Positions 2,683 through 25,183 of a stretch of 38,793 nucleotides of DNA are shown piece after piece. Origin of the DNA: Taibaiella sp. GTDB taxonomy: Bacteria; Bacteroidota; Bacteroidia; Chitinophagales; Chitinophagaceae. The stretch is taken from assembly GCA_021740995.1 (NCBI GenBank), contig JAIOYR010000035.1, forward strand, positions 1 to 38,793. Direction: 5' to 3'. Each line of letters starts with the position of its first letter. Within the stretch, counting starts at the first letter, position 1. Under the pieces are notes generated by a model. That model had not been told where the DNA came from, did not search any database, and was given only the letters and a program-made list of their open reading frames with translations. A program made the position numbers and the translations under genes.

Positions 2683-2713
2683 GCACTATCTTTGGCACGT
2701 AATAAGAAAAATC

Positions 2714-3826: not shown

Positions 3827-4251
3827 GTTTTCAGAAAGCAGTAAAAAGTGTGCCAGCTATAGCGCCCAGTCTTCGAAATGGTTTGCAGGCAATGGGTGCA
3901 AATAGTAGGCTGGTGCGCCCAACCGATCCCAGGGGCTGTGAGGGTAGTATAGATTTGGATGATTGCTATAGCAAGTTGCAACCTCAGGCTTCACGTTGGG
4001 ACTATGCAATAGGCTACAAAGGAAAATCTTATTTTGTAGAGGTACATCCTGCCAATGGCCAGGTCACAGAAATAATAGCCAAATGCACATGGTTGCGTAG
4101 CTGGCTCAATGCGGAAGGCGCACCATTGGCGCAAATTCATGGCGACGGAGCATTTCATTGGCTCTCAACTGCTGGGGTAAACATTTTTAGCAATGGCAAA
4201 GCACGGTTAGCACAAAATAAAATCATAGTAAATAGCCTGAAACTTTCATGA
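3823..4251 (+). CDS. Small nuclease-like protein paired with the ATPase
   Basis: A 142-aa protein of no family I can name. The start at 3823 overlaps the ATPase stop (ATGA) and its own stop overlaps the hsdM start in the same way, so it is tightly coupled to both. The middle contains GSIDLDDCY, then RWDYAIGY followed after a short strand by YFVEVHPA. A D-x(n)-E-x-H arrangement on adjacent predicted strands resembles the PD-(D/E)XK core with Lys replaced by His. That is an inference from pattern only, and the catalytic role is unproven. The open frame extends further upstream (to 3760), but the coupled ATG is the sensible start. It could be the effector, or a specificity partner, of the ATPase. 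Confidence 0.75.
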   Translation: MSFQKAVKSVPAIAPSLRNGLQAMGANSRLVRPTDPRGCEGSIDLDDCYSKLQPQASRWDYAIGYKGKSYFVEVHPANGQVTEIIAKCTWLRSWLNAEGAPLAQIHGDGAFHWLSTAGVNIFSNGKARLAQNKIIVNSLKLS

Positions 4252-5735
4252 GCACTACAACAACTAATAGTATAATATCCAAAGTCTGGTCATTCTGTAA
4301 TACCCTTCGTGATGATGGCGTAAGTTATGGCGACTACCTCGAGCAGCTTACTTATCTGCTGTTCCTTAAAATGGCAGACGAATATGCCAAGCCACCCTAC
4401 AACCGCAAGCTGCCTATTCCGGCACAATATAGCTGGGATAGCCTTACAGTGTTGAAGGGCGCTGAACTGGAAGTGCATTATGTAACGCTACTGCGCGAGC
4501 TGGGTAGCCAGAAGGGAATACTCGGCCAGATATTTACCAAAAGCCAGAATAAAATACAAGACCCCGCCAAGCTATACAAGTTGATTGATATGATCAATAA
4601 GGAGCAATGGACGGTAATGGGTGCCGATGTAAAAGGCGAAATATATGAAGGGCTGCTGGAAAAAAATGCCGAAGACACCAAGAGCGGTGCCGGGCAATAT
4701 TTTACCCCTCGTGCCCTTATAAAAACTATGGTAGCCTGCATACAGCCGCAACCTATGAAGACCATTGCAGACCCTGCCTGCGGTACAGGAGGCTTCTTTT
4801 TGGCTGCTTACGATTACATAGCTGCTCAAACCCTCGACAAAGAACAAAAGCAATTCCTGAAGTATAAAACCTTTTATGGCAACGAGATTGTAGCAGGTAC
4901 TCGTCGTATGGCACTCATGAACCTGTTCCTGCACAACATAGGCGATATAGACAGCGACAACTTCATATCTCCTGCCGATGCACTAATTGCAGATAACGGA
5001 GAGCGGTTTGATTATATATTGGCCAATCCACCCTTCGGCAAAAAGAGCAGCCAGACATTTACCAACGAAGAAGGCGAACAGGAGAAAGAAGACCTTACCT
5101 ACAACAGGCAAGACTTCTGGGCGAGTACCAGCAATAAGCAACTGAACTTCCTGCAACACATCCGCACCATGCTCAAAACTACAGGTATAGCGGCTGTAGT
5201 AATACCAGATAATGTACTATTTGAAGGTGGTGCTGGTGAAACAGTACGCAAAAAACTACTGGAAACTACAGAACTACACACCATACTCAGGCTACCCACA
5301 GGTATATTCTACGCCAACGGAGTAAAGGCAAATGTATTGTTCTTTGATGCTAAGCCAGCAGCAAAACAGGCATGGACAAAAGAGGTATGGATATTCGATT
5401 ATCGCACCAATGTACACCACACCCTTAAAAAGAACCCACTGAATACCAATGACCTGCAAGAGTTCATTGACTGCTACAATCCTAAGAATAGGCATAAGCG
5501 CAAGGAAACCTATAATGCAGAAACCAACCCCGAGGGGCGCTGGCGCAGGTATAGCTATGAAGAAATAATAGCCCGTGATAAAACCAGCCTGGATATAAGC
5601 TGGATAAAAGACAAGTCGCTGGCAGACCTCGACAACCTACCCGACCCTGATGTATTGGCAGAAGATATAGTAGAGAATTTAGAGGCAGCATTAGGTAGTT
5701 TTAGGGAAATCATTGCTTCACTGGCGAAAAAGTAG
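4248..5735 (+). CDS. hsdM: Type I restriction-modification DNA methyltransferase subunit M
   Basis: N6-adenine methyltransferase that protects host DNA and forms the core M2S1 enzyme with HsdS. The 495-aa protein has the helical HsdM N-domain (WSFCNTLRDDG to LLFLKMADE), SAM-binding motif I DPACGTGGFFLA at about residue 174 and catalytic motif IV NPPFG at about residue 260. This is the family's normal size and both motifs are intact. The ATG overlaps the preceding stop by four bases (ATGA). It is the last gene of the operon, whereas hsdM usually stands before hsdS, so the gene order here is unusual. Confidence 0.96.
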   Translation: MSTTTTNSIISKVWSFCNTLRDDGVSYGDYLEQLTYLLFLKMADEYAKPPYNRKLPIPAQYSWDSLTVLKGAELEVHYVTLLRELGSQKGILGQIFTKSQNKIQDPAKLYKLIDMINKEQWTVMGADVKGEIYEGLLEKNAEDTKSGAGQYFTPRALIKTMVACIQPQPMKTIADPACGTGGFFLAAYDYIAAQTLDKEQKQFLKYKTFYGNEIVAGTRRMALMNLFLHNIGDIDSDNFISPADALIADNGERFDYILANPPFGKKSSQTFTNEEGEQEKEDLTYNRQDFWASTSNKQLNFLQHIRTMLKTTGIAAVVIPDNVLFEGGAGETVRKKLLETTELHTILRLPTGIFYANGVKANVLFFDAKPAAKQAWTKEVWIFDYRTNVHHTLKKNPLNTNDLQEFIDCYNPKNRHKRKETYNAETNPEGRWRRYSYEEIIARDKTSLDISWIKDKSLADLDNLPDPDVLAEDIVENLEAALGSFREIIASLAKK

Positions 5736-8711: not shown

Positions 8712-9617
8712 CTACCTTTTGTTTAGCTTTCCCTCAAGTACGGCATATAATTGCCGGTGCTTATCGGCATTAATTTCTTTGAGCCGCTGTATGTTTTGCA
8801 GCTTCCATATTATGGCTGGGAACTGTTCAAAATTGTACAGAGCCCAATTAGGAGTACCTTCCTTAAAATCAAGTATAAACTGCTTATCTTCTTCTGTCAA
8901 GTTTTTATGTACTTCATTTAACAGCAGATCTCTTACTCGTTCAAATTCCTCGTAGCTAAAATCTTCCTTACTCATTCCTGTAAACTGATTTTCCATCGCT
9001 GCCCGTTGATCCAATAAATTCGGGAAAAGCACTTCGTTAATGGGGCGTTCACCACTCAATAGCCGAAAATAAAATCCTTCTTTTACCTCTTTGGAGTAGC
9101 CTTCATTTTGCAGAAGGTATTTCACATCAAACAAATCTCTCGGATGCTGTCGGTCTAATGCAGCACAAATCTTTCCTCCATACAATTGTCCGGCTGGAAC
9201 GACATTGATAGCACAAAACGCTTCAAATTCTTCCTGCGCTTTGTTGCACAATATCATCCCTACGGGTGCGGTAAGTGTACCCCTACCCACCATACTCACC
9301 TCTAACTTTACATCAGTCCCATTTACAGAAATCAGTAATTTCCCTTCTTCTTTCCTATGCGTGATGCGAGCTTGGGTAAACACTTTTTCGATAGTAGCTT
9401 TTATTCTCAGCAGGGCATTTCCAATATTCGTGAAAGAAGTTGCCCGGTCTTGGATAGGAACATAGGTCAGGTCAATATCTACTGACAATCTGGGCATATC
9501 CCTCACAAATAAATTGATAGCTGTACCACCATGAAGGGCAAAGCAATCTTCTTTTGCTACCTCTGGCAAAACAGTAAGTAATAATTCAACCTGCTTTTTA
9601 TAAGGTGCTTTTGCCAT
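8712..9617 (-). CDS. abiEii: AbiEii/AbiGii-type nucleotidyltransferase toxin
   Basis: Toxin of a type IV-like toxin-antitoxin pair, a nucleotidyltransferase-fold enzyme that halts growth on phage infection. The 301-aa protein has the family motifs HGGT (residues 29-32) and RLSVDIDLTY with Ser45, Asp47 and Asp49, matching the GG-x(n)-S-x-D-x-D metal and nucleotide site. Length is normal for the family. The ATG at 9617 overlaps the end of the antitoxin gene by 20 bp, giving translational coupling. Transcription runs leftward from the promoter near 10433. Related members in other systems act by modifying tRNA 3' ends, but the substrate here cannot be read from sequence. Confidence 0.9.
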   Translation of the reverse strand: MAKAPYKKQVELLLTVLPEVAKEDCFALHGGTAINLFVRDMPRLSVDIDLTYVPIQDRATSFTNIGNALLRIKATIEKVFTQARITHRKEEGKLLISVNGTDVKLEVSMVGRGTLTAPVGMILCNKAQEEFEAFCAINVVPAGQLYGGKICAALDRQHPRDLFDVKYLLQNEGYSKEVKEGFYFRLLSGERPINEVLFPNLLDQRAAMENQFTGMSKEDFSYEEFERVRDLLLNEVHKNLTEEDKQFILDFKEGTPNWALYNFEQFPAIIWKLQNIQRLKEINADKHRQLYAVLEGKLNKR

Positions 9618-10380
9618 ATTCTTCTAGTTCTCTGGGGATAGTTATTTGATACTTAGCGTTGTACACTCCATTCTTTACGATACTACGCTTGCCTTTTCCT
9701 AGATCTATATTCTTCAAATCGATATAGGGAAACCAACTGTGCTCTGCCTTCTCTGCCATATACATAAACAAACGTTTCACTTTCACCGATTGACATTTTT
9801 CAAGCAGTTGCTGCACCTGAACAGGTCTAAGATTATTCAGACCTTCCATAAGCTCAAAACATTCCATAAGCTCCTGTTTCTCGGGAGCCAAATACAAACA
9901 TTCCATTATCGCCCGCACAGCACCTGATACCTTGATTGAAAAACTCTTCAGTTCAACTTCCACCAAACCTTCGTCAGGTGGCAAAAATGATGACTGATAA
10001 AATTCAACTTTTACTCCCCAATCATGCCGCTGAAACCATGTCGGCAATTGTTCGCCTTTCCCGCCAAATACGATAACCTTTTGTTTGCCTAATTCCAAAT
10101 AATGCGCTTTGCCCAGCATTGATAAAGCCGTTCTACCTGCCGGGTGTATGTTAGTGCCAGATTGAGTTTGTAGTGCATATATTGCACCTTCATAGCCAAC
10201 ATCATCCCCGGTGCGTATCATTGCGCCTGTACCTATAGATTGCAGCCATTGGCCTTTCCTGTAGCGTTTTTGCAGGTCGAGACTATAACCGCTATTTACC
10301 AGCCAAAAGGACTGCATCACGATCCCGTTTGGTAGAGAACTGAGCAATTGGTTTATTTTAGTTGGTTTTTCGGAACTCAT
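9598..10380 (-). CDS. abiEi: AbiEi-family antitoxin / autoregulator
   Basis: A 260-aa protein with the layout of AbiEi antitoxins: an N-terminal winged-helix DNA-binding segment (KINQLLSSLPNGIVMQSFWL) and a middle and C-terminal domain with the family pattern IHPAGRTALSMLGKAHYLEL. It neutralises the downstream toxin and, in characterised relatives, represses its own operon by binding inverted repeats upstream. Here a perfect 9-bp inverted repeat lies 20-43 bp upstream of the start, between start codon and -7 box, supporting autoregulation. The gene overlaps abiEii by 20 bp. The pair is divergent from the sigma-factor operon on the right. Confidence 0.85.
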   Translation of the reverse strand: MSSEKPTKINQLLSSLPNGIVMQSFWLVNSGYSLDLQKRYRKGQWLQSIGTGAMIRTGDDVGYEGAIYALQTQSGTNIHPAGRTALSMLGKAHYLELGKQKVIVFGGKGEQLPTWFQRHDWGVKVEFYQSSFLPPDEGLVEVELKSFSIKVSGAVRAIMECLYLAPEKQELMECFELMEGLNNLRPVQVQQLLEKCQSVKVKRLFMYMAEKAEHSWFPYIDLKNIDLGKGKRSIVKNGVYNAKYQITIPRELEEYGKSTL

Positions 10381-10588: not shown

Positions 10589-11221
10589 ATGAATCTCACG
10601 GAATACAAAGAAAAATCACAATTACCGGATAGTGATTTGATTGACGGCTTGACGCTTCATGAAGATTACCTGGCAGTGATTTATAAAAAGCACAAAGACT
10701 ATTGCATAAAATTTATGCAAAAACAGTGTAATGGCAATGATTATGACGAATTAATAAACGACATATATCACGATGCTATCCTGGTTTTATACGAAAAGGC
10801 GAAAAATGGCGATTTCGTTCTTACTTCCTCCATACAGACCTACCTGAATTCAATATGCCGGTATCAGCTATTGAATAAATTCAAAGACACCGGAAAGTTT
10901 ATTATACTGCCGGATGCTACAAATTTTGACAATGAAGATGAGCCATATAAATACCGCCCCGGAATAAATGACTGGTTACCTGTGGATGAAAATGATATTA
11001 ATAGTGAACGGGTGCAGGCAATAGTGAGTAGTCTAGAATTAATGAGAGGGAAAGGTGACTGTTATGAGCTGCTGTCGATGTACTACTATCACAATAAAAC
11101 CATGAAACAAATTGCAGAACACTTTGACTATAAGGGTGAGCATATAGCCAAAAACAAGAACTATCTCTGCAAAGAAAAATTGAAAACACTAACTTTTGGA
11201 AAACTCAAGAAAATAAGATGA
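10589..11221 (+). CDS. ECF-type RNA polymerase sigma factor
   Basis: A 210-aa sigma-70-like protein of the extracytoplasmic-function type. The N-terminal part (about residues 25-95) has region 2 character: YKKHKDYCIKFMQKQ, then a helix with YDELINDIYHDAILVLYEKA. The C-terminal part (about 140-205) has region 4 with a helix-turn-helix (LLSMYYYHNKTMKQIAEHF). A longer-than-usual acidic linker separates them. It should direct RNA polymerase to a dedicated promoter set; the repeated GGTTACC-N14-CTATAAAT element farther right is the obvious candidate target. Its stop overlaps the start of the next gene (ATGA), a typical sigma/anti-sigma arrangement. No copy of that element precedes this gene itself. 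Confidence 0.85.
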   Translation: MNLTEYKEKSQLPDSDLIDGLTLHEDYLAVIYKKHKDYCIKFMQKQCNGNDYDELINDIYHDAILVLYEKAKNGDFVLTSSIQTYLNSICRYQLLNKFKDTGKFIILPDATNFDNEDEPYKYRPGINDWLPVDENDINSERVQAIVSSLELMRGKGDCYELLSMYYYHNKTMKQIAEHFDYKGEHIAKNKNYLCKEKLKTLTFGKLKKIR

Positions 11222-12437: not shown

Positions 12438-13964
12438 TTGAAGAACTTAATACTCTTATTACTAGGTCTTCTTGCTTTCATAAATATGAAGGCACAGAAT
12501 ATTTCTGCGAAGAAAAATACGCTCAACAAAGTATTTGGTGATCTGGTGAATGCCTATGGTAATGCTAAATCAGCACCAGCTCATGAGCTAATTCCCAAAT
12601 CATCCGATGAAAAGTATATTGCTACTTATATATCTACACCATCCCCTATAATAAAGGTTGATGAACAGCTTTTTGACCTCTGTATGCAGATGGGGGCTGA
12701 TAGTTTGAATGCGCTCTCTATTATCCTAAGTCATGAGCTTGCACACTATTACAATGACCACCACTGGTGTACTGACTTTGCATTTGCACTAAGCAAAGAA
12801 GCGAAATCTAAAGCTGAGAAAGAGAAAAATTACTGGCATAGTAAAGAAGAGAAAACCATTCACGAGGGAGAAGCGGATAATTTTGGGTTGTATCACTCTT
12901 GCATTGCCGGATACAGCCCGTTTAATGTTTACAGCCGATTGCTGCACAAGATATACACCGCATATGGCTTACCAGAAAACATGATTGGATACCCTTCAAA
13001 GAATGAACGCAAGCTAATTTGTAAGGAGGCCGAAAATAAAATAGTAAAGCTATATCCTGTTTTTCAAGCGGGGATTATTATGCTTCATTTAAAATATTAT
13101 ACGGTTGCAGCAGATTGTTTTCAATATCTAAGTATGTACTTCCCTAGCAGAGAGGTGTACAATAATCTTGGCGTTTGCAAATTGTTTGAAGCACTTGATT
13201 ATAATGGGTATGATAGTTTGAATTTTATTTATCCAATCGAAGTTGATCCATTAAGCAGAATGTTTCAAAGTATAAATAGGGGTGTCGACAGAAATGGAAA
13301 GGAGATAATTCAGAGGCAATTTTTCCAAGAGGCTAAAACTGCATTTGAAAAGGCTCTTGCTTTAGATCCTCAATATGTGCCAGCCTTTATTAACCTTGCA
13401 TGTCTATATGATGCAAAGAAAAATTATCAATCTGCTTTGGGTACTATATCTGAAATTCCGGTATCTGTCAGCTATTCTAATGATATAAAATTAATTGAGG
13501 CTATAGCTTTGTATCATACTGGAGAGAAGAATAAATCTTCTGCAATATTTTCGGAGTTAGCAAAAACAAACAGCCCCCTCTTAGTTTACAATAGTGAATT
13601 AGCTCTACTAGCAGCCAAAGAAAAAAGTGCTTTCGAAATTGAAGGTTGGAAGGACGAGTGGATACAGCATCATATCACTCCGATCAATAGAACTTGTAAT
13701 TTTAGTTATAAATTGTCACTAGACTCCTCACATATTATATCAATTAACGAGGATTTAGTTTTAAAAAGTGCTACTTATTCTTTTTATGAGGTACTCACAA
13801 TCGTAAATAAAGAAAAGAAGATCACAATAGAGATTGAGAAATGCACCGAAGAATCTTCTCCTTTCACTCTCGCTAATTTTTTTGTGTTAAAAGAAAATCA
13901 GTGCTTCAAGATCACATCTAATAATATCTGCTGGTTAGTAAACTATAACATAAAGTATGATTAA
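12438..13964 (+). CDS. Secreted M48-like zinc metallopeptidase with TPR region
   Basis: A 508-aa predicted exported protein. The TTG start at 12438 is chosen because it restores a full signal peptide (MKNLILLLLGLLAFINMKAQ); the first in-frame ATG would cut it off. The zinc site HELAH is at residues 99-103 and the third ligand is probably Glu143 in HEGEADNFG, the M48 pattern. A C-terminal TPR-like stretch follows (FEKALALDPQYVPAFINLACLY, about residue 308 on). It lies five bases after the membrane protein gene, and its end overlaps the CHAT gene by eight bases. A periplasmic peptidase in a sigma operon suggests site-1-type cleavage of the anti-sigma candidate; that is inference. Confidence 0.8.
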   Translation: MKNLILLLLGLLAFINMKAQNISAKKNTLNKVFGDLVNAYGNAKSAPAHELIPKSSDEKYIATYISTPSPIIKVDEQLFDLCMQMGADSLNALSIILSHELAHYYNDHHWCTDFAFALSKEAKSKAEKEKNYWHSKEEKTIHEGEADNFGLYHSCIAGYSPFNVYSRLLHKIYTAYGLPENMIGYPSKNERKLICKEAENKIVKLYPVFQAGIIMLHLKYYTVAADCFQYLSMYFPSREVYNNLGVCKLFEALDYNGYDSLNFIYPIEVDPLSRMFQSINRGVDRNGKEIIQRQFFQEAKTAFEKALALDPQYVPAFINLACLYDAKKNYQSALGTISEIPVSVSYSNDIKLIEAIALYHTGEKNKSSAIFSELAKTNSPLLVYNSELALLAAKEKSAFEIEGWKDEWIQHHITPINRTCNFSYKLSLDSSHIISINEDLVLKSATYSFYEVLTIVNKEKKITIEIEKCTEESSPFTLANFFVLKENQCFKITSNNICWLVNYNIKYD

Positions 13965-16900
13965 TAGACAGGTTTTGAAAGTTTGTTTTTGTGTTTTTGT
14001 TACTTTTTGTGCTGCTTTAAGTTGTATGGCTCAGAATTTGAGACTTGACTTAAATAGAATTGATAAGGAGGGCGCAACAAAAAAAACAAATGGCGAGTAT
14101 TTAGACTATTTAGAAGTTGAGATTACTAAGGTTGCTGATTCTTTTGGAAAAGCTTCCAAAGAATATATTTTCTTGAAAGGCTTCTATTTAGATGAATATA
14201 ATAGAAGATTGCAACCATTAAGTACATTAAGCCCTATTTCTCTAGAAGTGATGAAGTCTGGTCGAAAAGAACTCGTTCAGTTAGTTATGAACGTGTATGG
14301 TGATACTACTTGGCAATATTATTCCGCGAGAAGTATATACTCGAATTATTGTACCTCTATCGGGAGTCAAAGTTTGAATGACGATAGCGAACTCACCATT
14401 TTGATAGGCTCTTTCTATAATTCTATTTCTAAAATAGCAAGTACTAATTCTCTTTCCGATACTGATCGGCACTTCTATATTTATGGATCTTATGTCAGCA
14501 TTGCTTCATTATATAGAAAAGTAGGTCTACTGGACTCTGCAATTCTCTATTTCGAAAAAGCATTGAGTTATCGGAAACAGCATGCTGCAATTTTATACGG
14601 CATTGATAACTTTATTCAGATTTTGAGAAATTACGCGCGTTTAGCAGCGCAAAAAGACGCAATACTTGGTTTTAATATCCTTATGGATAATGAAGAACTT
14701 GTTGAACAAAAATATGCAACTAATAAGCAATGGCATATCGATTATCTATACGACATCCTGGATTATTTTATAAACAATAACAATGTAAATAAGGATGCAA
14801 TTGCTTACCTAAAAAAAGTAGATGCCCTTGTCAAAAAAACATACGAGGAGCAGTCTGTGGATTATATGTCGTATATATTGAACCATAGATTGCAAGTAAT
14901 TAAAAAGGCTGGTTACAAGTCCGAAGTATTTCAACAGTTGTCTTCTGTAAATGAGATTTACAATAAAAATAAAAAATTGCAATCGAGCTATTTTTTTTTA
15001 AAGCTATGTGCAGAATGGTTTGATTATTATAATTCAATTGGTGATAAGAATAACTGTCTAAAACAACTAGTTTATGCGAGAAACTATCTTGATAGTATTG
15101 ACTACACAACACTTTTTAGCTCTAAAAACGGCTCCTATTTTGATCGAAAAGCTTTTCCGGAGGTAATTTATATTTATAGACAACTCGGCTATTATTATCA
15201 GTTTAGAGACCTTGATAGTTGTTTACTATATCATTTCAAAGTTCTGGACTTAGAAGAAAATGCAAAAAAAACATGGGGTGATTACACAGTGCATCAATAT
15301 CATGAAATTGCAAAATTGCTTGTGAGCACACATGATAGTGATTACTATGATAATGCACTAAAGTTCTGTTCTATGGCATTATCGGAATTCGAATATGCTT
15401 ATGGTAGAGAATCTGGGTATTATAAGGCTGCTTTATATACCCTGGGCGAAATAAAGTTCAAAAAAAGTAAAGGTCAAAATGGTTTGACAGAAATGGCTCC
15501 ATTTGTATACTTAAAGCTTTATGATACCACATTTGTGCCGACTTTCAATACAAGTCATTTTTTGTCTTATGGGGATTGTCTCAATTCGGCAGGCAAATTT
15601 GACTCCGCTGATTTCTTTTACCAGGAAATATACCAGAGAAATCAGAATGCTCGAATTTTTAGAATTCTAGGTTATTCTAATGATTTACAGATAAAAGCGT
15701 TAAACGACATCTATGTGCAAAGCAATTTGATTTTGACTCAGCATCTCTTGAGATATAATCAAAAGAATTACAATCACGTTTCGACAGATTTGGCGAAATG
15801 GCTTTTTGATAAGAATTTAATTTATCAAGTTGAATCCTACAGCAAGCAAGCTGAGAGATATGGTCGCAACCAAAAGAAAACAGAAACATACGAAAACTTG
15901 GTTAACAGCAAAAGGAAGTATGATTCGCTATTGAATTTTGCAGAATCACAAAATATAGAAGAACTGGACACTGCATACGCCCGATATGATTTTTATAAAA
16001 ACTTAATGATACAAGACTACATTCTTGATGCATTTGAAAAAAGAAATCGGCTTTCCAAAATTGATAGTGACTTTTCTTTCTCTGAAGTCCAAGAAAAGTT
16101 AGGTGAAGACGAATGCTTTATCGATGTTATTCGTTTTTTAAAAAGCGATCCTCAACGTGGCTTTTCTCCAGAACCCTATTATGCAATTACTATTCTTACT
16201 CATTCCGATCAAGAAAAATTGGAATATTTTTTCATTCAACATGGAGATAAATTCGAAAAGGAAGTCCAAAGTGATGACGTTGACTACAATGTACTTTCCT
16301 CTAGTTTAAGTCCGATGATTGCCAAGTTGAAGCCTTTCGGTAAAATATATTTTTGCCCTGATGGGATTTTTAATTTAATAAACTTGAATTCCTTAAAAGA
16401 TTCCGATGGGAATTATTTACTTAAAGCAAAAAATATCTCGTATGTCAATAGCACGAAAGATATTTTTCTAAAACCCGAACGTAGTACTAGCAAGAAATCT
16501 ATAATTTTTGTAGGCAATCCTAAATTTAATAACAGCCAATATATAAAATCACAAGTAAGAGGTGTAGTAAATAATGCTAGTTTTTCTAACTTTTCTGAAC
16601 TCCCTTATTCTAAAATTGAAATTGAAACAGTTGAAAAGATCCTTTTAGAAAAAAAATGGCAATGCAAAAAATACATCGGGCTTGATTGTTCTGAAAAGAG
16701 CCTTCAAATCGAACCATTAAAAGGTATTTTGCATATTGCTACTCATGGTTATTACATTCCAGACAATGATAGTCTAAACATTTCTAGTGCAATGCTCAGT
16801 AATCAATATCTAAGGGCTGGTCTAGTATTGGGCAGTTCTTCAGCGAATGCCGATAATATTTTGACATCATATGAAGTGATGAGCCTAGACTTGGAAAATG

Positions 16901-17193
16901 TCTCTTTAGTTGTTTTGAGCGCCTGTGAATCTGGAAAGGGTAAACTACTGCCCGGCCAAGGTGCGTATGGCTTGCAAAGAGCCTTCTCTATTGCTGGTGC
17001 GAAAAATGTATTAATCTCAGTAAGAAACGTTGATGATAAAGCAACGCAGATTTTGATGAAATACTTTTATTTGCAGATCGCCGATGGAAAAGAGTTTAAT
17101 CAGGCTCTTAAGCTCGCCCAGCTTCAAATGATAGAACATCCTATTTACAGTGATCCGAAATACTGGAGTGGGTTCATCTTAATTGAAAATTAG
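13957..17193 (+). CDS. Secreted TPR-CHAT caspase-like protein
   Basis: A 1078-aa protein with an N-terminal signal peptide ending near CMAQN, a long helical TPR-type middle (for example LDSAILYFEKALSYR and LLYHFKVLDLEE) and a C-terminal CHAT protease domain. The catalytic dyad is intact: His930 in HIATHG and Cys990 in LSACESGKG, followed by the conserved GAYGLQRAFSIAGAKNVL stretch. CHAT proteases are clan CD cysteine peptidases related to caspases and separase. The gene overlaps the metallopeptidase gene and closes the sigma operon. It is strikingly AT-rich in codon use. The export signal is unusual next to the cytoplasmic TPR-CHAT proteins of CRISPR and gasdermin systems. Its substrate is unknown. 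Confidence 0.88.
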   Translation: MINRQVLKVCFCVFVTFCAALSCMAQNLRLDLNRIDKEGATKKTNGEYLDYLEVEITKVADSFGKASKEYIFLKGFYLDEYNRRLQPLSTLSPISLEVMKSGRKELVQLVMNVYGDTTWQYYSARSIYSNYCTSIGSQSLNDDSELTILIGSFYNSISKIASTNSLSDTDRHFYIYGSYVSIASLYRKVGLLDSAILYFEKALSYRKQHAAILYGIDNFIQILRNYARLAAQKDAILGFNILMDNEELVEQKYATNKQWHIDYLYDILDYFINNNNVNKDAIAYLKKVDALVKKTYEEQSVDYMSYILNHRLQVIKKAGYKSEVFQQLSSVNEIYNKNKKLQSSYFFLKLCAEWFDYYNSIGDKNNCLKQLVYARNYLDSIDYTTLFSSKNGSYFDRKAFPEVIYIYRQLGYYYQFRDLDSCLLYHFKVLDLEENAKKTWGDYTVHQYHEIAKLLVSTHDSDYYDNALKFCSMALSEFEYAYGRESGYYKAALYTLGEIKFKKSKGQNGLTEMAPFVYLKLYDTTFVPTFNTSHFLSYGDCLNSAGKFDSADFFYQEIYQRNQNARIFRILGYSNDLQIKALNDIYVQSNLILTQHLLRYNQKNYNHVSTDLAKWLFDKNLIYQVESYSKQAERYGRNQKKTETYENLVNSKRKYDSLLNFAESQNIEELDTAYARYDFYKNLMIQDYILDAFEKRNRLSKIDSDFSFSEVQEKLGEDECFIDVIRFLKSDPQRGFSPEPYYAITILTHSDQEKLEYFFIQHGDKFEKEVQSDDVDYNVLSSSLSPMIAKLKPFGKIYFCPDGIFNLINLNSLKDSDGNYLLKAKNISYVNSTKDIFLKPERSTSKKSIIFVGNPKFNNSQYIKSQVRGVVNNASFSNFSELPYSKIEIETVEKILLEKKWQCKKYIGLDCSEKSLQIEPLKGILHIATHGYYIPDNDSLNISSAMLSNQYLRAGLVLGSSSANADNILTSYEVMSLDLENVSLVVLSACESGKGKLLPGQGAYGLQRAFSIAGAKNVLISVRNVDDKATQILMKYFYLQIADGKEFNQALKLAQLQMIEHPIYSDPKYWSGFILIEN

Positions 17194-17250: not shown

Positions 17251-17748
17251 CTATTGCGAGTAGGTTGTGGTGTAGTTCCCCCAATAATCAGTATTGCCAG
17301 TACTTGTACCAATAGTATTTCCGTAACTGTTAGAATAATTGGTGTTGTAGTTGCCCGAATAATCTGATGAACTGGTGCTGGTTCCTATTGTGTTCCCGTA
17401 GCCGTTGCTGTAAGTAGTGTTGTAGTTTCCCCAGTAGTCACTGTTGCTAGTGCTCGTTCCTATGGTGTTACCATAGCTATTAGTGTAGGTAGTGTTGTAA
17501 TTCCCCCAATAATCAGAGGAGCCTGTACTTGTAGCTATGGTATTACCATAGCTGCTGGTGTAGGTTGTATTCACATTGCCCCAGTAGTCTTTTGAAGTTT
17601 GGCTTGTACCTACCGTCTGGCCATACTGGTTTGCATAGGTTGTATTGATGTTGCCCCAGTAGTCTACAGAACTTTTGCTGGTTTGGGCATTGGCGCCGTT
17701 TGTTAGGCTTAATAGAGTTATTACGAGAACTATAATTGAGTATTTCAT
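17251..17748 (-). CDS. Secreted protein of six 25-residue DYWGN repeats
   Basis: A 165-aa predicted exported protein: the signal peptide ends around TNGANAQ, and six near-identical 25-residue units fill the rest. Each unit carries DYWGN, then NTTY and YGNTIG; the fifth has DYSGN and the last is cut short. The repeats are 75 bp at DNA level. The composition (Tyr, Asn, Thr, Ser, Gly) suggests a beta-rich, perhaps fibrous or surface protein. It is the last gene of a short leftward unit, 49 bp after the Tyr-rich gene, and has no sigma element of its own. No catalytic residues are evident, and no named family is recognised. Confidence 0.75.
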   Translation of the reverse strand: MKYSIIVLVITLLSLTNGANAQTSKSSVDYWGNINTTYANQYGQTVGTSQTSKDYWGNVNTTYTSSYGNTIATSTGSSDYWGNYNTTYTNSYGNTIGTSTSNSDYWGNYNTTYSNGYGNTIGTSTSSSDYSGNYNTNYSNSYGNTIGTSTGNTDYWGNYTTTYSQ

Positions 17749-17797: not shown

Positions 17798-18181
17798 TTA
17801 CCTGCTATAGTAGCTATTAGAGTAGTTGGAGTAGCCAGAATATTGTGGTGTGTAAGATGAGTAGTTAGTGCTAGGGTATGAAGGGGTATATGTATTGTAA
17901 TTGGAGTAAGTGGTCGTTGGTGTACTGTAGCTTGAATTGTAGGAAGGGGTACTGTAGGAAGAGTTGTAGCCGCCTGGTTTAGTGCCTTCAGAGCCAGTGT
18001 ATGGGTTCACATTCCCGGCTGTACTCCAGTTATCATCCCTGGTGTAGTTAGCCGTTGTTCTGTAATGGCCTTCTACATAAGTACCGTTTGACCGGGTATA
18101 GCCATTTACATAGGTTTGTCCTTGTCCGAAAGAGGTAACATATACCAGGATTGCTGCGATAAAGAGAATTGCGTTTTTCAT
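17798..18181 (-). CDS. Small secreted Tyr/Ser-rich protein
   Basis: A 127-aa predicted exported protein: signal peptide to about SFGQGQ, then a conserved-looking block (TYVNGYTRSNGTYVEGH, then NWSTAGNVNPYTGSEGT), then a low-complexity Tyr/Ser/Thr/Asn tail. The NVNPYTG block recurs in many small exported proteins of Bacteroidota and Proteobacteria of unknown role. It is the first gene after one copy of the GGTTACC-N14-CTATAAAT element and is likely cotranscribed with the repeat protein downstream. Confidence 0.75.
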   Translation of the reverse strand: MKNAILFIAAILVYVTSFGQGQTYVNGYTRSNGTYVEGHYRTTANYTRDDNWSTAGNVNPYTGSEGTKPGGYNSSYSTPSYNSSYSTPTTTYSNYNTYTPSYPSTNYSSYTPQYSGYSNYSNSYYSR

Positions 18182-18222
18182 TTTGTTTGATTTTTGTGGT
18201 TAAAAATGTTGTTTGATTTACT

Positions 18223-18251
18223 ATTTATAGAAATAGCAGCATGAGGTAACC
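18223..18251 (-). promoter_or_regulatory. ECF-type promoter element, copy 1
   Basis: On the minus strand GGTTACC (18251-18245), 14 bases, then CTATAAAT (18230-18223). It lies 41 bases before the ATG of the Tyr-rich secreted protein. Spacing and both boxes are identical to the copies at 20312 and 20375. Upstream flank TTTCT is also shared with copy 2. Confidence 0.75.
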
Positions 18252-18282
18252 AGAAATAATGAAGAAATATTTCTGCAATGTA

Positions 18283-19074
18283 TTAGACAAGGTGATCGCT
18301 CTTTCTTTTTCTCCTAATGGCGAGCAATACAGACGTAAATGCCAGAATTGCAATAGAACCTAATCCGCCATACACCAAATAGGTATTTAGGGTTATTTTA
18401 TTGTCAGTAGCCGGTTCATTTACTGGCAATGGCGGATTTAGTGTTGTATTGAGGTTCACCTCATTGAGCATGGCAATTGATTGTAGAATAGAGTTGCTAT
18501 CTGCACCATAGTCTACCAGCTCATTGTAGCTCGCAGAATCTGTGTATGCCCAAACAGCATGTTGGGCGATCATGTTTTGGGCATAAGTTTTATCAATATG
18601 CCTTGCAAGTCTAACAAGCGAAGAGTCTGCATACTCCCCAACTGTATAATCAGCAAAAATAAATGGCGATCTCTTGTGCATTTGTGAGCACATGGCATAA
18701 AATCTTGTCCGGTATACCCTTCCCGGGAATAAAGGAAATAAAACCTCTTTTGTAACGAGCATTTTCTGAAAGGAGTCATCTGTGGGTATCAGTATCGTAC
18801 CTGATTCAAGTCTTACAATTACGGTGCTATCCAACTTGCTTTTCAAGATAGCCTCCATACACTTCCCAAAATGTACACCGTCTTTACCGGCAACTTCATA
18901 ATACTGACGGGGGTTGTAACTACCGCTGATTCTTATTTCAATCATCTTGCTCTCTATTGCCGTTTTTAATGGGATAACAATAGGTCTTGAATTATTCAGT
19001 GAATCATTTGCAGCATCTGCATGCAACGTTCTAAAAGCCGTAATAATTAGCACTAATAAAATTCGTGATCTCAT
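18283..19074 (-). CDS. Exported protein with C-terminal membrane anchor, unknown family
   Basis: A 263-aa protein read from the ATG at 19074 (MRSRILLVLIITAF), which starts a signal peptide ending near LHADA; an upstream start would bury it. One hydrophobic segment near the C-terminus (YGGLGSIAILAFTSVLLAI) followed by RRKRK predicts a type I membrane protein with a short cytoplasmic tail. The exported part is about 200 residues without recognisable motifs. It lies 35 bp downstream of the J-domain gene and is probably the last gene of the leftward four-gene unit that starts at the copy-2 sigma element. Confidence 0.7.
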   Translation of the reverse strand: MRSRILLVLIITAFRTLHADAANDSLNNSRPIVIPLKTAIESKMIEIRISGSYNPRQYYEVAGKDGVHFGKCMEAILKSKLDSTVIVRLESGTILIPTDDSFQKMLVTKEVLFPLFPGRVYRTRFYAMCSQMHKRSPFIFADYTVGEYADSSLVRLARHIDKTYAQNMIAQHAVWAYTDSASYNELVDYGADSNSILQSIAMLNEVNLNTTLNPPLPVNEPATDNKITLNTYLVYGGLGSIAILAFTSVLLAIRRKRKSDHLV

Positions 19075-19109
19075 ACTTTCAAATTTTAGAGTAAAGGCAA
19101 TTGATGCAA

Positions 19110-19601
19110 TCAACAACTCTTTACCAAGAGGAAAATTATATTTATTATGACAAAGTAACCCAATACTTGAATTATCCCAGATACAGCTCCCTTGCCAGCG
19201 GCTTTAACTATACCACTGGTATCTTTTACCGCCTGAGCAGTAATATCTCTGGCTTGCTTTTGGGCCTTTTCAATCCAGTCGCGGAGCAGATCACTTTGAA
19301 AATGGTAGTTCTTTCCTGTAGCCTGTTCTTCATTATTATCAGGAGGTGATTGTTTTGTTTGAGATTCGCCTCCCATTGTTTCATGGTATCGTATCCATTC
19401 AACATCATAAATTGTTTTTGCTTCCGGGTCTGACAATATCAGGTAAGCCTCATTAAGCAACTGCATTTTGGTAGTAGCATCACTACTATGGTTTATATCT
19501 GGATGATATTTTTTCACCAGCGATCTATACGCTATTTTCAGCTCATTTGTTGAAGCTGTATTGAGCACACCAAGCACTGAATAATAGTCTATGAACTGCA
19601 T
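19110..19601 (-). CDS. J-domain (DnaJ-like) membrane protein
   Basis: A 163-aa protein with an N-terminal J domain: DYYSVLGVLNTAS, helix II, and the HPD motif at residues 33-35, then LLNEAYLILSDPEAKTIYD. This domain stimulates Hsp70 ATPase activity. There is no Gly/Phe or zinc-finger region; instead a linker leads to a C-terminal hydrophobic segment (VLGYFVIINIIFLLV), giving a membrane-tethered co-chaperone with a cytoplasmic J domain. Its start overlaps the stop of the upstream 64-aa gene by one base. In this stress-like operon it may recruit DnaK to the inner membrane. Confidence 0.85.
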   Translation of the reverse strand: MQFIDYYSVLGVLNTASTNELKIAYRSLVKKYHPDINHSSDATTKMQLLNEAYLILSDPEAKTIYDVEWIRYHETMGGESQTKQSPPDNNEEQATGKNYHFQSDLLRDWIEKAQKQARDITAQAVKDTSGIVKAAGKGAVSGIIQVLGYFVIINIIFLLVKSC

Positions 19602-19795
19602 TACTTGTTTAGTTTAGGGTCATTATCATTTGTGTTATCTGGCTCGGGCTTATATTTCCATACCGCAGCAATGGCACCAAAGCCAAGGAGCATACTAATA
19701 AATGCAGGTACAGACCCTCTGGCTGCGGTCATTACGCCCAGGATAATCAAAGTGATAATTACTTTTATCACAGCACGTAGAATTGAGTTTGTCAT
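19601..19795 (-). CDS. Small two-TM membrane protein
   Basis: A 64-aa protein with two hydrophobic segments (about residues 8-25, VIKVIITLIILGVM, and about 30-46, AFISMLLGFGAIAAVW) and a short polar C-terminal tail. No family is recognised. Its stop overlaps the J-domain gene start by one base, and the YbjN-like gene ends 10 bp upstream, so it is firmly in the operon. It may be a partner of the membrane J protein. Confidence 0.65.
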   Translation of the reverse strand: MTNSILRAVIKVIITLIILGVMTAARGSVPAFISMLLGFGAIAAVWKYKPEPDNTNDNDPKLNK

Positions 19796-19805
19796 TTTTT
19801 TGATT

Positions 19806-20297
19806 TTATGAGTTATAAATTGAATTGAAAGCGACTATCGGTGCGACGTTTCCGAAATTAACGTTGGCAATAGAGGGAAAAATAGAATCTACAGAGTTGA
19901 TATTGGTATCGAGCAGTATGTCTAGTTCCTTCTTAGTAAAATGTTCCACATTTGCCAATTGAGTAGTGATATGACTTACTTCGCCATCTTCGTTGTCGAG
20001 ACACCACTTACCTAACAGTATGTGATAATTTACACGGTTGAGCAAGTCGGCTACTTTCAGCAGTTGGCTATCCCCAACACAAAGCGGCATCACCGACTGA
20101 ATTGTTATCAGTTTCCTGTGCTCGTCTATTCTGAGATAAATATTCCAGCTCAGGTTATTACCTCTAATGCCGGTTTTGATTACACCATCGGATAATACGG
20201 AATAAGTGAATTCTCTTGCGGTCAGGTGTTGCTCAACCAGACCAGTTAATGTTATCGCTGTTGCTACTTTTTGATTTGATTTTTTGGAGAAGAACAT
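19806..20297 (-). CDS. YbjN-like protein
   Basis: A 163-aa soluble protein with the alternating strand-helix pattern of YbjN / type III chaperone-like folds: WNIYLRIDEHRKLITIQSVMP, then LLKVADLLNRVNYHILLGKWCLDNEDGEV. YbjN-type proteins are stress-linked and of poorly known function, and the assignment is by general pattern. It is the first gene of the leftward unit; its ATG lies 14 bases after the -10 box of the copy-2 element, leaving a very short leader. Confidence 0.6.
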   Translation of the reverse strand: MFFSKKSNQKVATAITLTGLVEQHLTAREFTYSVLSDGVIKTGIRGNNLSWNIYLRIDEHRKLITIQSVMPLCVGDSQLLKVADLLNRVNYHILLGKWCLDNEDGEVSHITTQLANVEHFTKKELDILLDTNINSVDSIFPSIANVNFGNVAPIVAFNSIYNS

Positions 20298-20311
20298 TGG
20301 TTTGTTTTTCG

Positions 20312-20340
20312 ATTTATAGAAAATCTTAGAACAGGTAACC
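20312..20340 (-). promoter_or_regulatory. ECF-type promoter element, copy 2
   Basis: On the minus strand GGTTACC (20340-20334), 14 bases, CTATAAAT (20319-20312). It precedes the YbjN-like gene and so the operon to the J-domain and anchored proteins. It stands back to back with copy 3, the two GGTTACC boxes being 34 bp apart. About 48 bases (20313-20360) align well with 18224-18272. Confidence 0.75.
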
Positions 20341-20374
20341 AGAAACAGTGAAAAATATTTTTTTTAAAAAAGTT

Positions 20375-20403
20375 GGTTACCACAACCATGTTTTACTATA
20401 AAT
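20375..20403 (+). promoter_or_regulatory. ECF-type promoter element, copy 3
   Basis: GGTTACC (20375-20381), 14 bases, CTATAAAT (20396-20403) on the plus strand. Only the boxes and spacing match the other two copies; the 14-bp spacer is unrelated, which argues for function rather than simple duplication. The ATG at 20402 lies inside the -10 box, so the following gene must start downstream. Confidence 0.75.
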
Positions 20404-21684: not shown

Positions 21685-22551
21685 ATGCAATTTATGAAAG
21701 CACAATCACTACAATTAATCGCCTGTCTTATAATCCTAATACTGAGTTCATGTGGATGCAGACAAAATGAACAAACAATAATCACTAAAAAGCACAACTA
21801 CGTCATAATACTTGACTTAAGCGATAGGCTCCTAAACGATGGACAGGCAGAAAAGGACAGTTCTATAATTATGACTGCATTCACAGAATTTGAAAAGACT
21901 GCCAGAAGTCCGTTGATATTAACATCAAACGACAGATTTTCCGTAAGGATTATTCCACAGAAAGGTAGTTCACTGCACAAAGACTATTTTGAAAACAAAC
22001 TTAATATTGATCTGTCAATTATTGATGCTGCACACAAAAACAATGCATTTGTAGAAATGAAGAGTACAATTTCAGGCATAATATCTGAACTATACAAAGA
22101 AGCGCATCTTGGCAATAATTCAACTGAATATTCAGGTGTCGACATCTGGAAGTTTTTTAACGATGAAATAAACACTGAATTAAAAACTGATGCAGAGAAT
22201 AAAGTAGTAGTCCTTACAGATGGGTATTTCGATTTTAATGACAACGGTCACGTGCTTAAAACAGGCAATAAATATACCAGTACTTCATTTCTAACAGAAT
22301 TCAATCGTAAAGATTGTAATTGGAAAAACAAAGCACAACAGGATAGTATAGGACTAATGCCAGTGACTATTAAAACAAGCTCGAAATGGATCATAGCCGG
22401 GGTTCAGGGTAAGAATTTGAGCGATATACAGATGGAAGAAAAGCTGGAGTATTTTTGGAAAAAGTGGTTAAAAGAGTCTCTTTGTGGTGAGCCCAAAATA
22501 ATACTTAACAATTCAAGTACAGTGATGGTAAACCAATACACAAATAAATAA
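21685..22551 (+). CDS. vWA-like lipoprotein
   Basis: A 288-aa protein with a lipoprotein signal (LIILILSSC, Cys at about 23). An alternative ATG at 21694 would shorten it by three residues. After the lipobox comes YVIILDLSDRL (Asp at about 44) and later VVVLTDGYFDF, which together resemble the strand-1 and LTDG elements of a von Willebrand A fold with a degenerate DxSxS metal site. It lies 17 bp after the four-TM gene. Likely attached to a membrane facing the periplasm and acting in binding rather than catalysis. Confidence 0.7.
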   Translation: MQFMKAQSLQLIACLIILILSSCGCRQNEQTIITKKHNYVIILDLSDRLLNDGQAEKDSSIIMTAFTEFEKTARSPLILTSNDRFSVRIIPQKGSSLHKDYFENKLNIDLSIIDAAHKNNAFVEMKSTISGIISELYKEAHLGNNSTEYSGVDIWKFFNDEINTELKTDAENKVVVLTDGYFDFNDNGHVLKTGNKYTSTSFLTEFNRKDCNWKNKAQQDSIGLMPVTIKTSSKWIIAGVQGKNLSDIQMEEKLEYFWKKWLKESLCGEPKIILNNSSTVMVNQYTNK

Positions 22552-22572: not shown

Positions 22573-22971
22573 ATGACATTAAATTCAATGACAACTACCG
22601 AAGTAGTAGATGAAGACGTAAAGAAAGAACTGTTATCCAATATTGCTGAAGAAAAGCAGATTATAGTAAATTGTATAATAAACGGAGGTAACGACGGTAC
22701 TGCTGCACGAATATGGAAAAGTACCTATCTTGTAGACAACGTATCTAAGCAAAGAAGTGTTCTACTTCATACTATAGGTGTGTCGCATTATCCTAATTGG
22801 ACACACATTCCGCCCAAAAGTACTTTGAGGTTTTCTCTTATTTTCTCTCCCTTACCCCAGTCTACAAAAGTTTTTGATCTGGTAGAACAAATACCTGAAT
22901 CAGGTGGCTTCTATTTTAGTGGTCTTAGAAGAAATGATGCAGATGTTTACCAAGTTGACTTGACAGATTAA
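22573..22971 (+). CDS. Small soluble protein of unknown family
   Basis: A 132-aa protein without signal peptide or membrane segment. The ATG at 22588 is an alternative start. The centre has a strand-rich pattern (QIIVNCIINGGNDGTAARIW, then STYLVDN) ending in VDLTD. No family is recognised. It follows the lipoprotein gene by 21 bp and is followed by the NTF2-like gene, so it shares the copy-3 promoter. Confidence 0.6.
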   Translation: MTLNSMTTTEVVDEDVKKELLSNIAEEKQIIVNCIINGGNDGTAARIWKSTYLVDNVSKQRSVLLHTIGVSHYPNWTHIPPKSTLRFSLIFSPLPQSTKVFDLVEQIPESGGFYFSGLRRNDADVYQVDLTD

Positions 22972-23031
22972 TAGTCGTATTTGCTTTATATATTACACAG
23001 CACTATCGTATATGAATTTAACAAAAAAAGC

Positions 23032-23562
23032 ATGGTTCACATAGTTACTATTATCGACCCAAGGGAAATTACAAGACAGTTTGCAAAAGCTGTTCAGAAT
23101 AAAGATTTTACCATCATAGAAAATCTGCTAGCTGATGATGGAGAATTCAATACTCAGGATGCAGACCTAAATACTATTGAAAGTTGTAGTAAGTCTGCAT
23201 TTATGGTTTGGCTCAAGTTTGTTTTAAAGAAACAATCTGTTGCTTCTATAGAATACGACCAGTGCATAATGTGTAGAATGGGCAACCCTGTTGTATTATT
23301 TAATGATGGTTTCCTTATCAGACAAGAAGATTCTCGTGAACGAGCAAAAACTGGTTTTATGATAGATGTAGTAGACGGTGTGATTAAAGAAATTGCATTT
23401 TGCCACTATTTTGCAGATAGAGAAAATAAATCTCAACTTGAGTATGACAGCATTGAAATAAAAAAATTGCAAGCAACTGGTATTCCGCTATTGCAAGCAA
23501 TTGATATCGTATTAGCTAAAAGGGGTGTTGAAGATATTTGGATGGGTAATAAGCTGTTTTAG
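23032..23562 (+). CDS. NTF2/SnoaL-like protein
   Basis: A 176-aa soluble protein. The ATG at 23032 is preferred over a TTG at 22981. The start ITRQFAKAVQNKDFTIIENLLADDGEF has the helix-helix-turn of the NTF2-like cone fold; the strand-rich part IEYDQCIMCRMGNPVVLFN follows. No catalytic residues are evident, so a binding or accessory role is likely. It is the last gene of the rightward unit. Confidence 0.55.
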   Translation: MVHIVTIIDPREITRQFAKAVQNKDFTIIENLLADDGEFNTQDADLNTIESCSKSAFMVWLKFVLKKQSVASIEYDQCIMCRMGNPVVLFNDGFLIRQEDSRERAKTGFMIDVVDGVIKEIAFCHYFADRENKSQLEYDSIEIKKLQATGIPLLQAIDIVLAKRGVEDIWMGNKLF

Positions 23563-23884: not shown

Positions 23885-25183
23885 TTATGCTGCTTTTTTA
23901 GCCTTCTTCTTCACCGGCTTTTCTTTCCTGTCCTCCCATATGCCCTGCAAAATCTTAGCGTGTTGATCGCGTGTTACCCGAATATACTTCATAAAAGCAG
24001 TTTCGGTTTTATGACCTGTTATTGCCATTATGGTCAGGGTGGGGGTACCAGCCAAATATTCATTGGTTGCAAAGCTGCGCCGTGCAGTATGCGTTGTTAG
24101 CAGTTTCCATTTGGGAACCGTTTTATTAAGGGCTTCTCCACCCTTTGTTCCGCTCACGGTAACAATTTTTTTCAGACATTCTGTTTTTTCTCCAATGTCT
24201 TTAAGGTGGTCGTTTGCTTTTTGGTTGCTGATCGCAGGAGGCAAACTTCCATCGTATTTGTTCATTATCTTTTGTACCTCTGGATGAACAGGAATGATAA
24301 CGGGCTTGCTTGTTTTGATTTGAGTTAGCGTTATCAACCCATTCTTAATTTGTGACGGCTGCAAGGTGGATAAGTCGGAAAAACGTAAACCGGTATAACA
24401 ACCCACCACAAACAAATCTCTAGCGCGCTCTAAGCCCGGTGTTCCCGACAAATCAGCGTCAGCCAGCTCCTTTAGCTCATCCTTATCCAAATAAATGGTA
24501 TCCGCTTCTTCTCTGATTGTAGTAAAGCCCTTCTTTTTAAATGCGTCATTCTTATTGTGGCCAAGTTCCGTTGCTTCATTAAGAACCGTCTTGATTGTTT
24601 TTATATGTTTGCCAATGTAGTTGGTTGATTGTTTTGCGTTCAGAGTAAGGTATTTCACAAAGTCGTTATAAAACGCCAGATCAATATTGTCGAAATCAAT
24701 TTTGCACTTTGCATGTTTCTGGTAATTTTCTAAACATACTTTCGTGGTGTAATAGTTTTTGATCGTCCCAGGCGTAACAGGTTTACCAATGCTGGTTAAT
24801 CGCGTGCCGTTCTTGCTTCTGTCAATGAATTCTTGGAAAAAATTCATAAAAGTCACGCGGTCTTTTATTCCTTTGTTCTTGATGGCAACATCCAAAAGCA
24901 ATTTCAAAACATCAGGCGTGGGTACCATGCTATTGTTTTCATTTGCATATTTTCTAATAATATTTTTAATGTCAATCGCAAGAGTATCAAGTCGCCGGTT
25001 GAACTCAGGAAATTCTGGAAATTTTTTTGTTTGCTTTGCCCGTTTTGTCTGCTTATCCCAGAACAATGGATGAATGCTCTCAGATATATAGTATTTTGCT
25101 TCGTAGCTGCCGTAATACATTCTGGCATATATAGCTGTGGGTGTCAAAGCATTTATTTGTTTGAGATGAAATGAGATAGTCAT
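23885..25183 (-). CDS. Tyrosine recombinase / island integrase
   Basis: A 432-aa integrase of the type carried by Bacteroidota genomic islands. The N-terminal arm-binding part (about 1-100) starts MTISFHLKQINALTPT; a SAM-like core-binding domain spans about 105-210; the catalytic domain has Arg267 in TGLRFSD, Lys290, His365 and Arg368 in HTARRS, His391 in GHKTE and nucleophile Tyr400. All key residues are present, so it is likely active. A lysine-rich tail closes it. A TATCTTTG box lies 26-33 bases upstream. It marks the right end of the island that carries the defence and sigma modules. Confidence 0.93.
   Translation of the reverse strand: MTISFHLKQINALTPTAIYARMYYGSYEAKYYISESIHPLFWDKQTKRAKQTKKFPEFPEFNRRLDTLAIDIKNIIRKYANENNSMVPTPDVLKLLLDVAIKNKGIKDRVTFMNFFQEFIDRSKNGTRLTSIGKPVTPGTIKNYYTTKVCLENYQKHAKCKIDFDNIDLAFYNDFVKYLTLNAKQSTNYIGKHIKTIKTVLNEATELGHNKNDAFKKKGFTTIREEADTIYLDKDELKELADADLSGTPGLERARDLFVVGCYTGLRFSDLSTLQPSQIKNGLITLTQIKTSKPVIIPVHPEVQKIMNKYDGSLPPAISNQKANDHLKDIGEKTECLKKIVTVSGTKGGEALNKTVPKWKLLTTHTARRSFATNEYLAGTPTLTIMAITGHKTETAFMKYIRVTRDQHAKILQGIWEDRKEKPVKKKAKKAA

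Follow-up and report, generated by a model that had tools for sequence, protein, structure and literature searches.

What is the role of three short, identical elements that stand in front of three neighbouring gene units, and which protein would read them? The elements lie on contig JAIOYR010000035.1 of the Taibaiella sp. assembly GCA_021740995.1, within a stretch of 38,793 nt that was analysed as a whole and is called the window below (the genome itself is labelled G000). The first-pass annotation had described three identical copies of GGTTACC followed, after 14 bases, by a second box, and had taken them, from their shape, for ECF sigma promoters with a -35 and a -10 box. Their presence, spacing and positions were confirmed by pattern search: GGTTACC-N14-CTATAAAT matched three times in the window and never in 100 dinucleotide shuffles. 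When the spacer was left free (GGTTACC-N10..20-TATAAAT), the identical three matches were obtained, all with N14. The boxes are identical in the three elements and the spacers are different. From the -10 box to the start codon, the distances are 41, 14 and 16 bases for promoters 1, 2 and 3, respectively. Genomic coordinates of the elements and of the genes around them can be found in Table 1.

Table 1. Predicted promoters, cassette genes and predicted target genes, with their positions in the window.
Feature	Position	Strand	Remarks
Predicted promoter 1, GGTTACC-N14-CTATAAAT	18223..18251	-	Exact match; ahead of TyrB-TyrA unit
Predicted promoter 2	20312..20340	-	Exact match; ahead of operon YbjN-like / 64-aa membrane / J-domain / membrane protein
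Predicted promoter 3	20375..20403	+	Ahead of coiled-coil membrane protein operon; -10 box overlaps ATG at 20402
ECF-like sigma factor, 210 aa	10589..11221	+	Proposed reader of the three promoters; orthologs in G013, G267, G053
Putative anti-sigma, 404 aa	11218..12432	+	Gene overlaps sigma gene; helical N-terminal part, C-terminal part
M48-like HExxH protein with TPR repeats	12438..13964	+	TPR_2 1.8e-7; signal peptide by eye
TPR-CHAT caspase-like protease	13957..17193	+	CHAT 1.3e-51; signal peptide by eye
TyrA, small Tyr-rich repeat protein	17251..17748	-	Signal peptide by eye; predicted target via TyrB unit; own motif in L047, L139
TyrB, small Tyr/Ser-rich protein	17798..18181	-	Signal peptide by eye; predicted target; orthologs with motif in L047, L091, L056
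Membrane protein (by eye)	18283..19116	-	Predicted target; probable start ATG 19074, from ortholog start in L091
J-domain protein	19110..19601	-	DnaJ 1.3e-20; predicted target
64-aa membrane protein (by eye)	19601..19795	-	Predicted target
YbjN-like protein	19806..20297	-	PF10722 3.2e-8; first gene of predicted target operon
Coiled-coil membrane protein, 415 aa	20420..21667	+	Start moved from 20402; orthologs 75% and 70% identical
Lipoprotein, VWA-like by eye only	21685..22551	+	Predicted target; no Pfam match above cut-off; structure model too poor for use
Protein without assigned function	22573..22971	+	Predicted target, coiled-coil operon
Protein without assigned function	22981..23562	+	Predicted target, coiled-coil operon

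A genome-wide scan bore out the restriction of the motif to this locus as far as exact matches are concerned: in the 3,911,839 bases (151 contigs) of the own genome, the three window copies are the only ones. The relaxed pattern behaves much like its control. Up to two mismatches, 14 places were found, one of them with one mismatch and ten with two, versus 12 for the reversed pattern, and the exact copies alone exceed the control.

A sigma factor, a putative anti-sigma, an M48-like/TPR protein and a TPR-CHAT protease are encoded together in the window, which is an unusual setting for an ECF sigma. The sigma protein matches TIGR02937 over residues 29-199 (E 6.4e-10) with 38.9 bits, narrowly under the NCBIfam cut-off of 42.9, and Sigma70_r4 of Pfam with 16.4 bits, under the cut-off of 24.1. 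The protein encoded next (404 aa) has a predicted helix at residues 206-228, membrane-spanning by eye. Its structure model is of low confidence (mean pLDDT 54.8), a Pfam scan returned no match and fold comparison no clear one; we call it a putative anti-sigma from its position, its helical N-terminal part and its one probable membrane helix, not from a family match. In the M48-like protein, HELAH is present in the translation and Peptidase_M48 matches below cut-off (E 0.067); the TPR matches of the CHAT protein are weak and also below cut-off. Neither Cas7-11 (gRAMP) nor another Cas family scored above the Pfam cut-off among the 30 window proteins that were scanned, and PADLOC detected no Cas7-11 among the 10 window proteins given to it. 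A weak Cas5b match on the coiled-coil protein (E 0.0057) was taken as chance.

According to the ORF lists, the three units comprise 2, 4 and 4 genes, and gene spacing suggests that the genes of each unit are co-transcribed. These sizes, ten genes in total, fit the local regulon of at least ten genes that had been predicted, and the comparison across species described below supports it. The start of the coiled-coil gene had likewise been corrected to 20420. This correction is supported by the orthologs at loci L047 and L091, whose ORFs, taken from their first ATG, align with it from residue 1; at L047, the -10 box before the ortholog has no overlapping ATG. Type I restriction genes (within 44-5735) and an AbiE toxin-antitoxin pair (8712-10380) lie on one side of the cassette, a tyrosine recombinase gene (23885-25183) on the other. 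Rare in the family and bordered by such genes, the cassette may be a genomic island.

The elements recur outside of the window species. With the pattern GGTTACC-N14-YTATWRRT (W-type), 14 sites were counted in five species, the window species and four others, before orthologous units and once before the sigma gene. The sigma has orthologs in another genome of the genus (G013) and in one genome each of two further genera (G053 and G267). At the G013 locus (L047), the exact element occurs three times, preceding the coiled-coil gene, TyrB and TyrA. In G267 (L091), W-type sites precede TyrB, YbjN and the coiled-coil gene, on a contig that differs from that of the sigma. The G053 locus (L056) has its sites before the sigma, TyrB and a unit of the 64-aa membrane protein and the J-domain protein, three in the genome with two patterns. 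Finally, G697, whose sites are identical to those of G033 (the same genome), has them before YbjN (L122) and TyrA (L139); a candidate before its coiled-coil gene (L122), with a spacer that is one base longer by eye, was left out of the 14. Thirteen of the sites were also found with the first -10 base free, the G053 site at L056 8242 only with the pattern requiring C or T. Five further places matched by this last pattern are uncounted, inside ORFs in G699, G697, G698 and G377, and intergenic in G018. The G018 match (contig C90 24796-24824, L133) lies in a genome where a related sigma is present without the cassette, and may be due to chance or be a target of that sigma. In the genome collection, two peptide patterns detected relatives of the coiled-coil protein only at the loci of CANFHA01 (a Chitinophagaceae MAG, G013), CAIRZD01 (G697) and CAIWXG01 (G267). 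The leader between the promoter and the TyrB/TyrA start (about GTAAATCAAACAACATTTTTAAC; window 18181-18223, L047, L091 and L139) is strongly conserved across species.

Very similar elements stand ahead of corresponding genes in related bacteria, and the three of the window are very probably start signals for the window sigma or a close sister of it. The ECF promoter reading of the first-pass annotation gains from this recurrence, seen in four species besides the window's, and from a related sigma clade that adjoins sites of equal -35 box and spacing (see below); judged by these sequence comparisons, the identity of the elements as ECF-type promoters is very probable. The same recurrence already contradicts the idea of a chance repeat, or of recently copied intergenic DNA without function. 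Three copies within 2.2 kb, two of which (1 and 2) have by eye some A/T-rich upstream sequence in common, could have suggested such an origin. The boxes are identical while the spacers differ, however, and W-type boxes persist where the sigma is only 41-62% identical to that of the window, so that we give this idea almost no credit.

The motif is not private to the window sigma, a possibility that was ruled out because loci of a paralogous sigma, which is widespread in the family, bear the identical -35 box. In the own genome, the paralog on contig C10 has GGTTACT-N14-GTATTAA ahead of its start, and one hit with one mismatch and one with two, both on contig C27, lie before two small lipoprotein genes. 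These C27 genes (14123-14821; L015, L146) are in tandem and encode small Ala/Thr/Glu-rich lipoproteins, with promoters of the form GGTTACC-TTTTT-N9-GTATAAA. The elements had been assigned to the sigma next door on the argument that it had no other obvious target. As a unique pairing, this assignment is not supported, given the C10 and C27 sites, and GGTTACC alone is therefore no pointer to a neighbouring sigma.

The pattern GGTTA[CT][CT]-N14-NTAT[AT]AA was found at 16 of the 23 paralogous-sigma loci, versus 3 of 460 shuffles. These loci carry 24 sites, 11 directly before the sigma gene (7 flagged by script; L017, L032, L034 and L042 by eye) and 13 before a small lipoprotein gene (all by eye), and the first -10 base is G in 24 out of 24. 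Of all the evidence, these sites argue most strongly for GGTTAC-type promoters being read by this sigma clade. At L017, L026, L038 and L056, the -10 box overlaps the apparent sigma start or sits within about 13 bases of it, which suggests near-leaderless transcripts or misplaced starts. Related lipoproteins were matched in 33 of the 35 genomes of the genus (E up to 0.01). By manual count, 24 of 30 fetched lipoprotein loci have a promoter of the strict pattern. Some of the candidate lipoprotein starts are nested; of 52 in total, 35 matched that pattern. The lipoprotein genes lie within about 3 kb of the paralogous sigma in at least eight genomes (G003, G006, G008, G017, G023, G024, G025 and G027). 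Unlike the G053 sigma gene and the 11 paralog genes, the window sigma gene has no site in its upstream region, where positive autoregulation, a common though not obligatory trait of ECF factors, would place one. Look-alikes of the form GGTTACC-N14-NTATTAAT occur inside sigma genes (window 10974-11002; L047 16410-16438), where they encode WLP...IN; at the G053 and G267 loci, a pattern that covers part of the variants detected none. They are probably a coding coincidence, the alternative being an internal promoter.

We compared the W-type sites with 68 distinct sites of the paralog and lipoprotein kind (L-type). The -35 box and the 14-base spacing are common to both. Among the 14 W-type sites, the first -10 base is C in 8 and T in 6, and T precedes GGTTACC in 13. 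For the L-type, the first -10 base is G in 67 sites and C in one, the preceding base is G in 64, TTTTT follows the -35 box in 36, and 24 have the variant GGTTACT. A first -10 G is thus found in 0 of 14 versus 67 of 68 sites (Fisher p 7e-15, for sites from related species that are not independent). Region 4 of the sigma factors is similar by eye in both clades and region 2.4 divergent, within the boundaries that we take these regions to have. The -35 box therefore seems to have been kept and the -10 box to have changed.

This comparison also bears on a quite different reading of the box. Except for its central base, GGTTACC is palindromic (GGTNACC), and could by its shape be the operator of a dimeric regulator placed over ordinary promoters. 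A TATWAA-like box nevertheless stands at 14 bases in both classes (a distance that is built into the patterns), and the search with free spacer in the window yielded no other distance. The GGTTACT variant of the L-type breaks the palindrome. In addition, TAnnTTTG, the Bacteroidetes housekeeping -7 box (PMC7366714), is absent around all 14 W-type sites. We consider an operator very improbable, and retain the reading of the elements as ECF promoters.

We then asked whether sigma, cassette and sites are found together or apart. The pattern GGTTACC-N14-YTATARRT matched 28 places in 23 of 394 family genomes. This is no overall enrichment, as the reversed pattern matched about 60 places by hand count, and 16 of the 25 places outside of the window fall within ORFs. 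The M48-like/TPR gene was detected in 4 of the 394 genomes (G000, G053, G267 and G377) and distant matches to it in 62 of 396, counts that are possibly low because only the best three candidates per genome were scored. Intergenic sites are present in the first three of the four genomes. When 10 genomes were checked, the M48-like/TPR gene was present in four (G000, G013, G053 and G267), all with a window-type sigma, and a window-type sigma was found in four of the five genomes bearing W-type sites. G377 has the M48-like/TPR and CHAT genes without a window-type sigma; no site was found at its locus, and the sole match of the genome is within an ORF. In G033/G697, the target genes have sites, and neither a window-type sigma nor the M48-like/TPR gene was found; this bin consists of 510 contigs, so that the sigma could be missing through an assembly gap. 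Five genomes with a related sigma and without the M48-like/TPR gene (G027, G015, G007, G018 and G009) gave 0, 0, 0, 1 and 0 whole-genome matches, respectively, the G015 genome being 65% complete.

In identity to the window sigma, the five site-less sigmas (42-48%) are no more distant than the site-bearing ones of G053 (42%) and G267 (48%). In the sigma tree, for which 18 of the 23 outgroup loci had a usable ORF (many shortened at the first ATG) and from which the own C10 sigma was left out, the four site-bearing and the five site-less sigmas are split by a 100/100 branch. With midpoint rooting the five are nested among the four, and the status of the four as a clade is therefore unsupported. 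Similar identities and this nesting indicate that the presence of sites cannot be predicted from the relatedness of the sigmas alone. At the distant M48-like/TPR loci, two profiles detected a sigma nearby in 3 of 20, and GGTTA[CT][CT]-N14-NTATWAA was found at none of the 20. The promoter class thus tracks the sigma clade and not the M48-like protein. In these three loci (L211, L218 and L222), the sigma is of the ECF type and in two cases one gene separates it from the M48-like/TPR protein.

Since the -35 box is common to both classes, it is conceivable that the paralogous sigma (in the own genome, that of C10) does all or some of the reading at these elements, which would still be genuine ECF promoters, and that the three units belong to its regulon. 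The identical spacing, the lack of a site before the window sigma gene, and G033/G697, which has sites and the paralog, would all fit. Evidence against such cross-reading comes from the separation of the -10 classes (C or T in 14 of 14, versus G in 67 of 68), from the G class of every site at the paralog loci, and from the location of W-type sites on the contig of the window-type sigma in three of the four genomes that have it. On balance, we find it improbable.

The explanation that we favour instead, and consider likely as a whole, assigns the elements to the window sigma. The three elements would be promoters whose -35 and -10 boxes are recognised by an ECF sigma factor, and we infer that this factor is the one encoded in the window. 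The sigma would probably be held by the membrane protein encoded next, the putative anti-sigma. Once released, it would direct transcription of the three adjacent units and their ten genes, several of which encode envelope or secreted proteins. As looked for with an ECF factor, the sigma appears to have its own promoter class before nearby genes, with 14 sites in five species. This class, GGTTACC-N14-YTATWRRT, would be the sister of the GGTTACY-N14-GTATWAA class found beside the paralogous sigma, from which it differs at the start of the -10 box.

Promoters of ECF sigma factors have been little mapped in Bacteroidota. A 2020 paper states that none were known for B. thetaiotaomicron (PMC7366714), and another source gives only about 6% of Bacteroidetes ECFs as having a class I anti-sigma domain nearby (PMC7406223). 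The present analysis adds two sister promoter classes within one sigma clade. With their common -35 box and differing -10 box, they make a natural case for testing what keeps paralogous sigma factors separate, and the W-type class is tied to a gene cluster rich in proteases. A literature search, judged by the titles and abstracts of the papers listed, did not find this promoter class or gene cluster described, nor a published name for the family-wide ECF sigma with the small-lipoprotein target. With that family-wide system the window promoters share the -35 box, the 14-base spacer and a TATWAA core. That system differs from them in its G at the first -10 base, its frequent T-tract after the -35 box, its usual G before GGTTAC, and its targets.

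Known systems resemble the locus in part. As in the RpoE/RseA type (group IV ECF with a membrane anti-sigma), the sigma is small with partial similarity to sigma-70 ECF factors, the next gene encodes a probable single-span membrane protein, local promoters are present, and sites precede the sigmas' own genes, here in the paralog clade. In contrast to that type, no site precedes the window sigma gene, the putative anti-sigma shows no recognisable domain of a known anti-sigma family, and the boxes are GGTTACC and TATAAAT, where an older description of ECF promoters gives AAC and CGT (PMC8103513). A second parallel is Craspase of type III-E CRISPR, where the inhibitor Csx30 of CASP-sigma is cut by a TPR-CHAT protease, and three sigma sites lie in the system's own locus (PMC10028731). 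The window likewise combines a TPR-CHAT protease, an ECF sigma and a candidate inhibitor with three predicted sigma sites within the locus. By analogy with CASP-sigma, our guess is that the CHAT and M48-like proteins may cleave the 404-aa protein and would in this way take part in sigma release. In its fullest form, which we regard as speculative and rather doubtful, the secreted, caspase-like TPR-CHAT protease and the M48-like/TPR protein would cleave the anti-sigma in its outer part, freeing the sigma, as an envelope-facing counterpart of the Craspase switch, and the promoters of the sister sigmas would be split mainly at the first -10 base. The window is set apart from Craspase by the lack of a Cas family above its cut-off among the 30 proteins scanned with Pfam, by the CHAT protein, which appears by eye to be secreted, and by the added M48-like/TPR protein.
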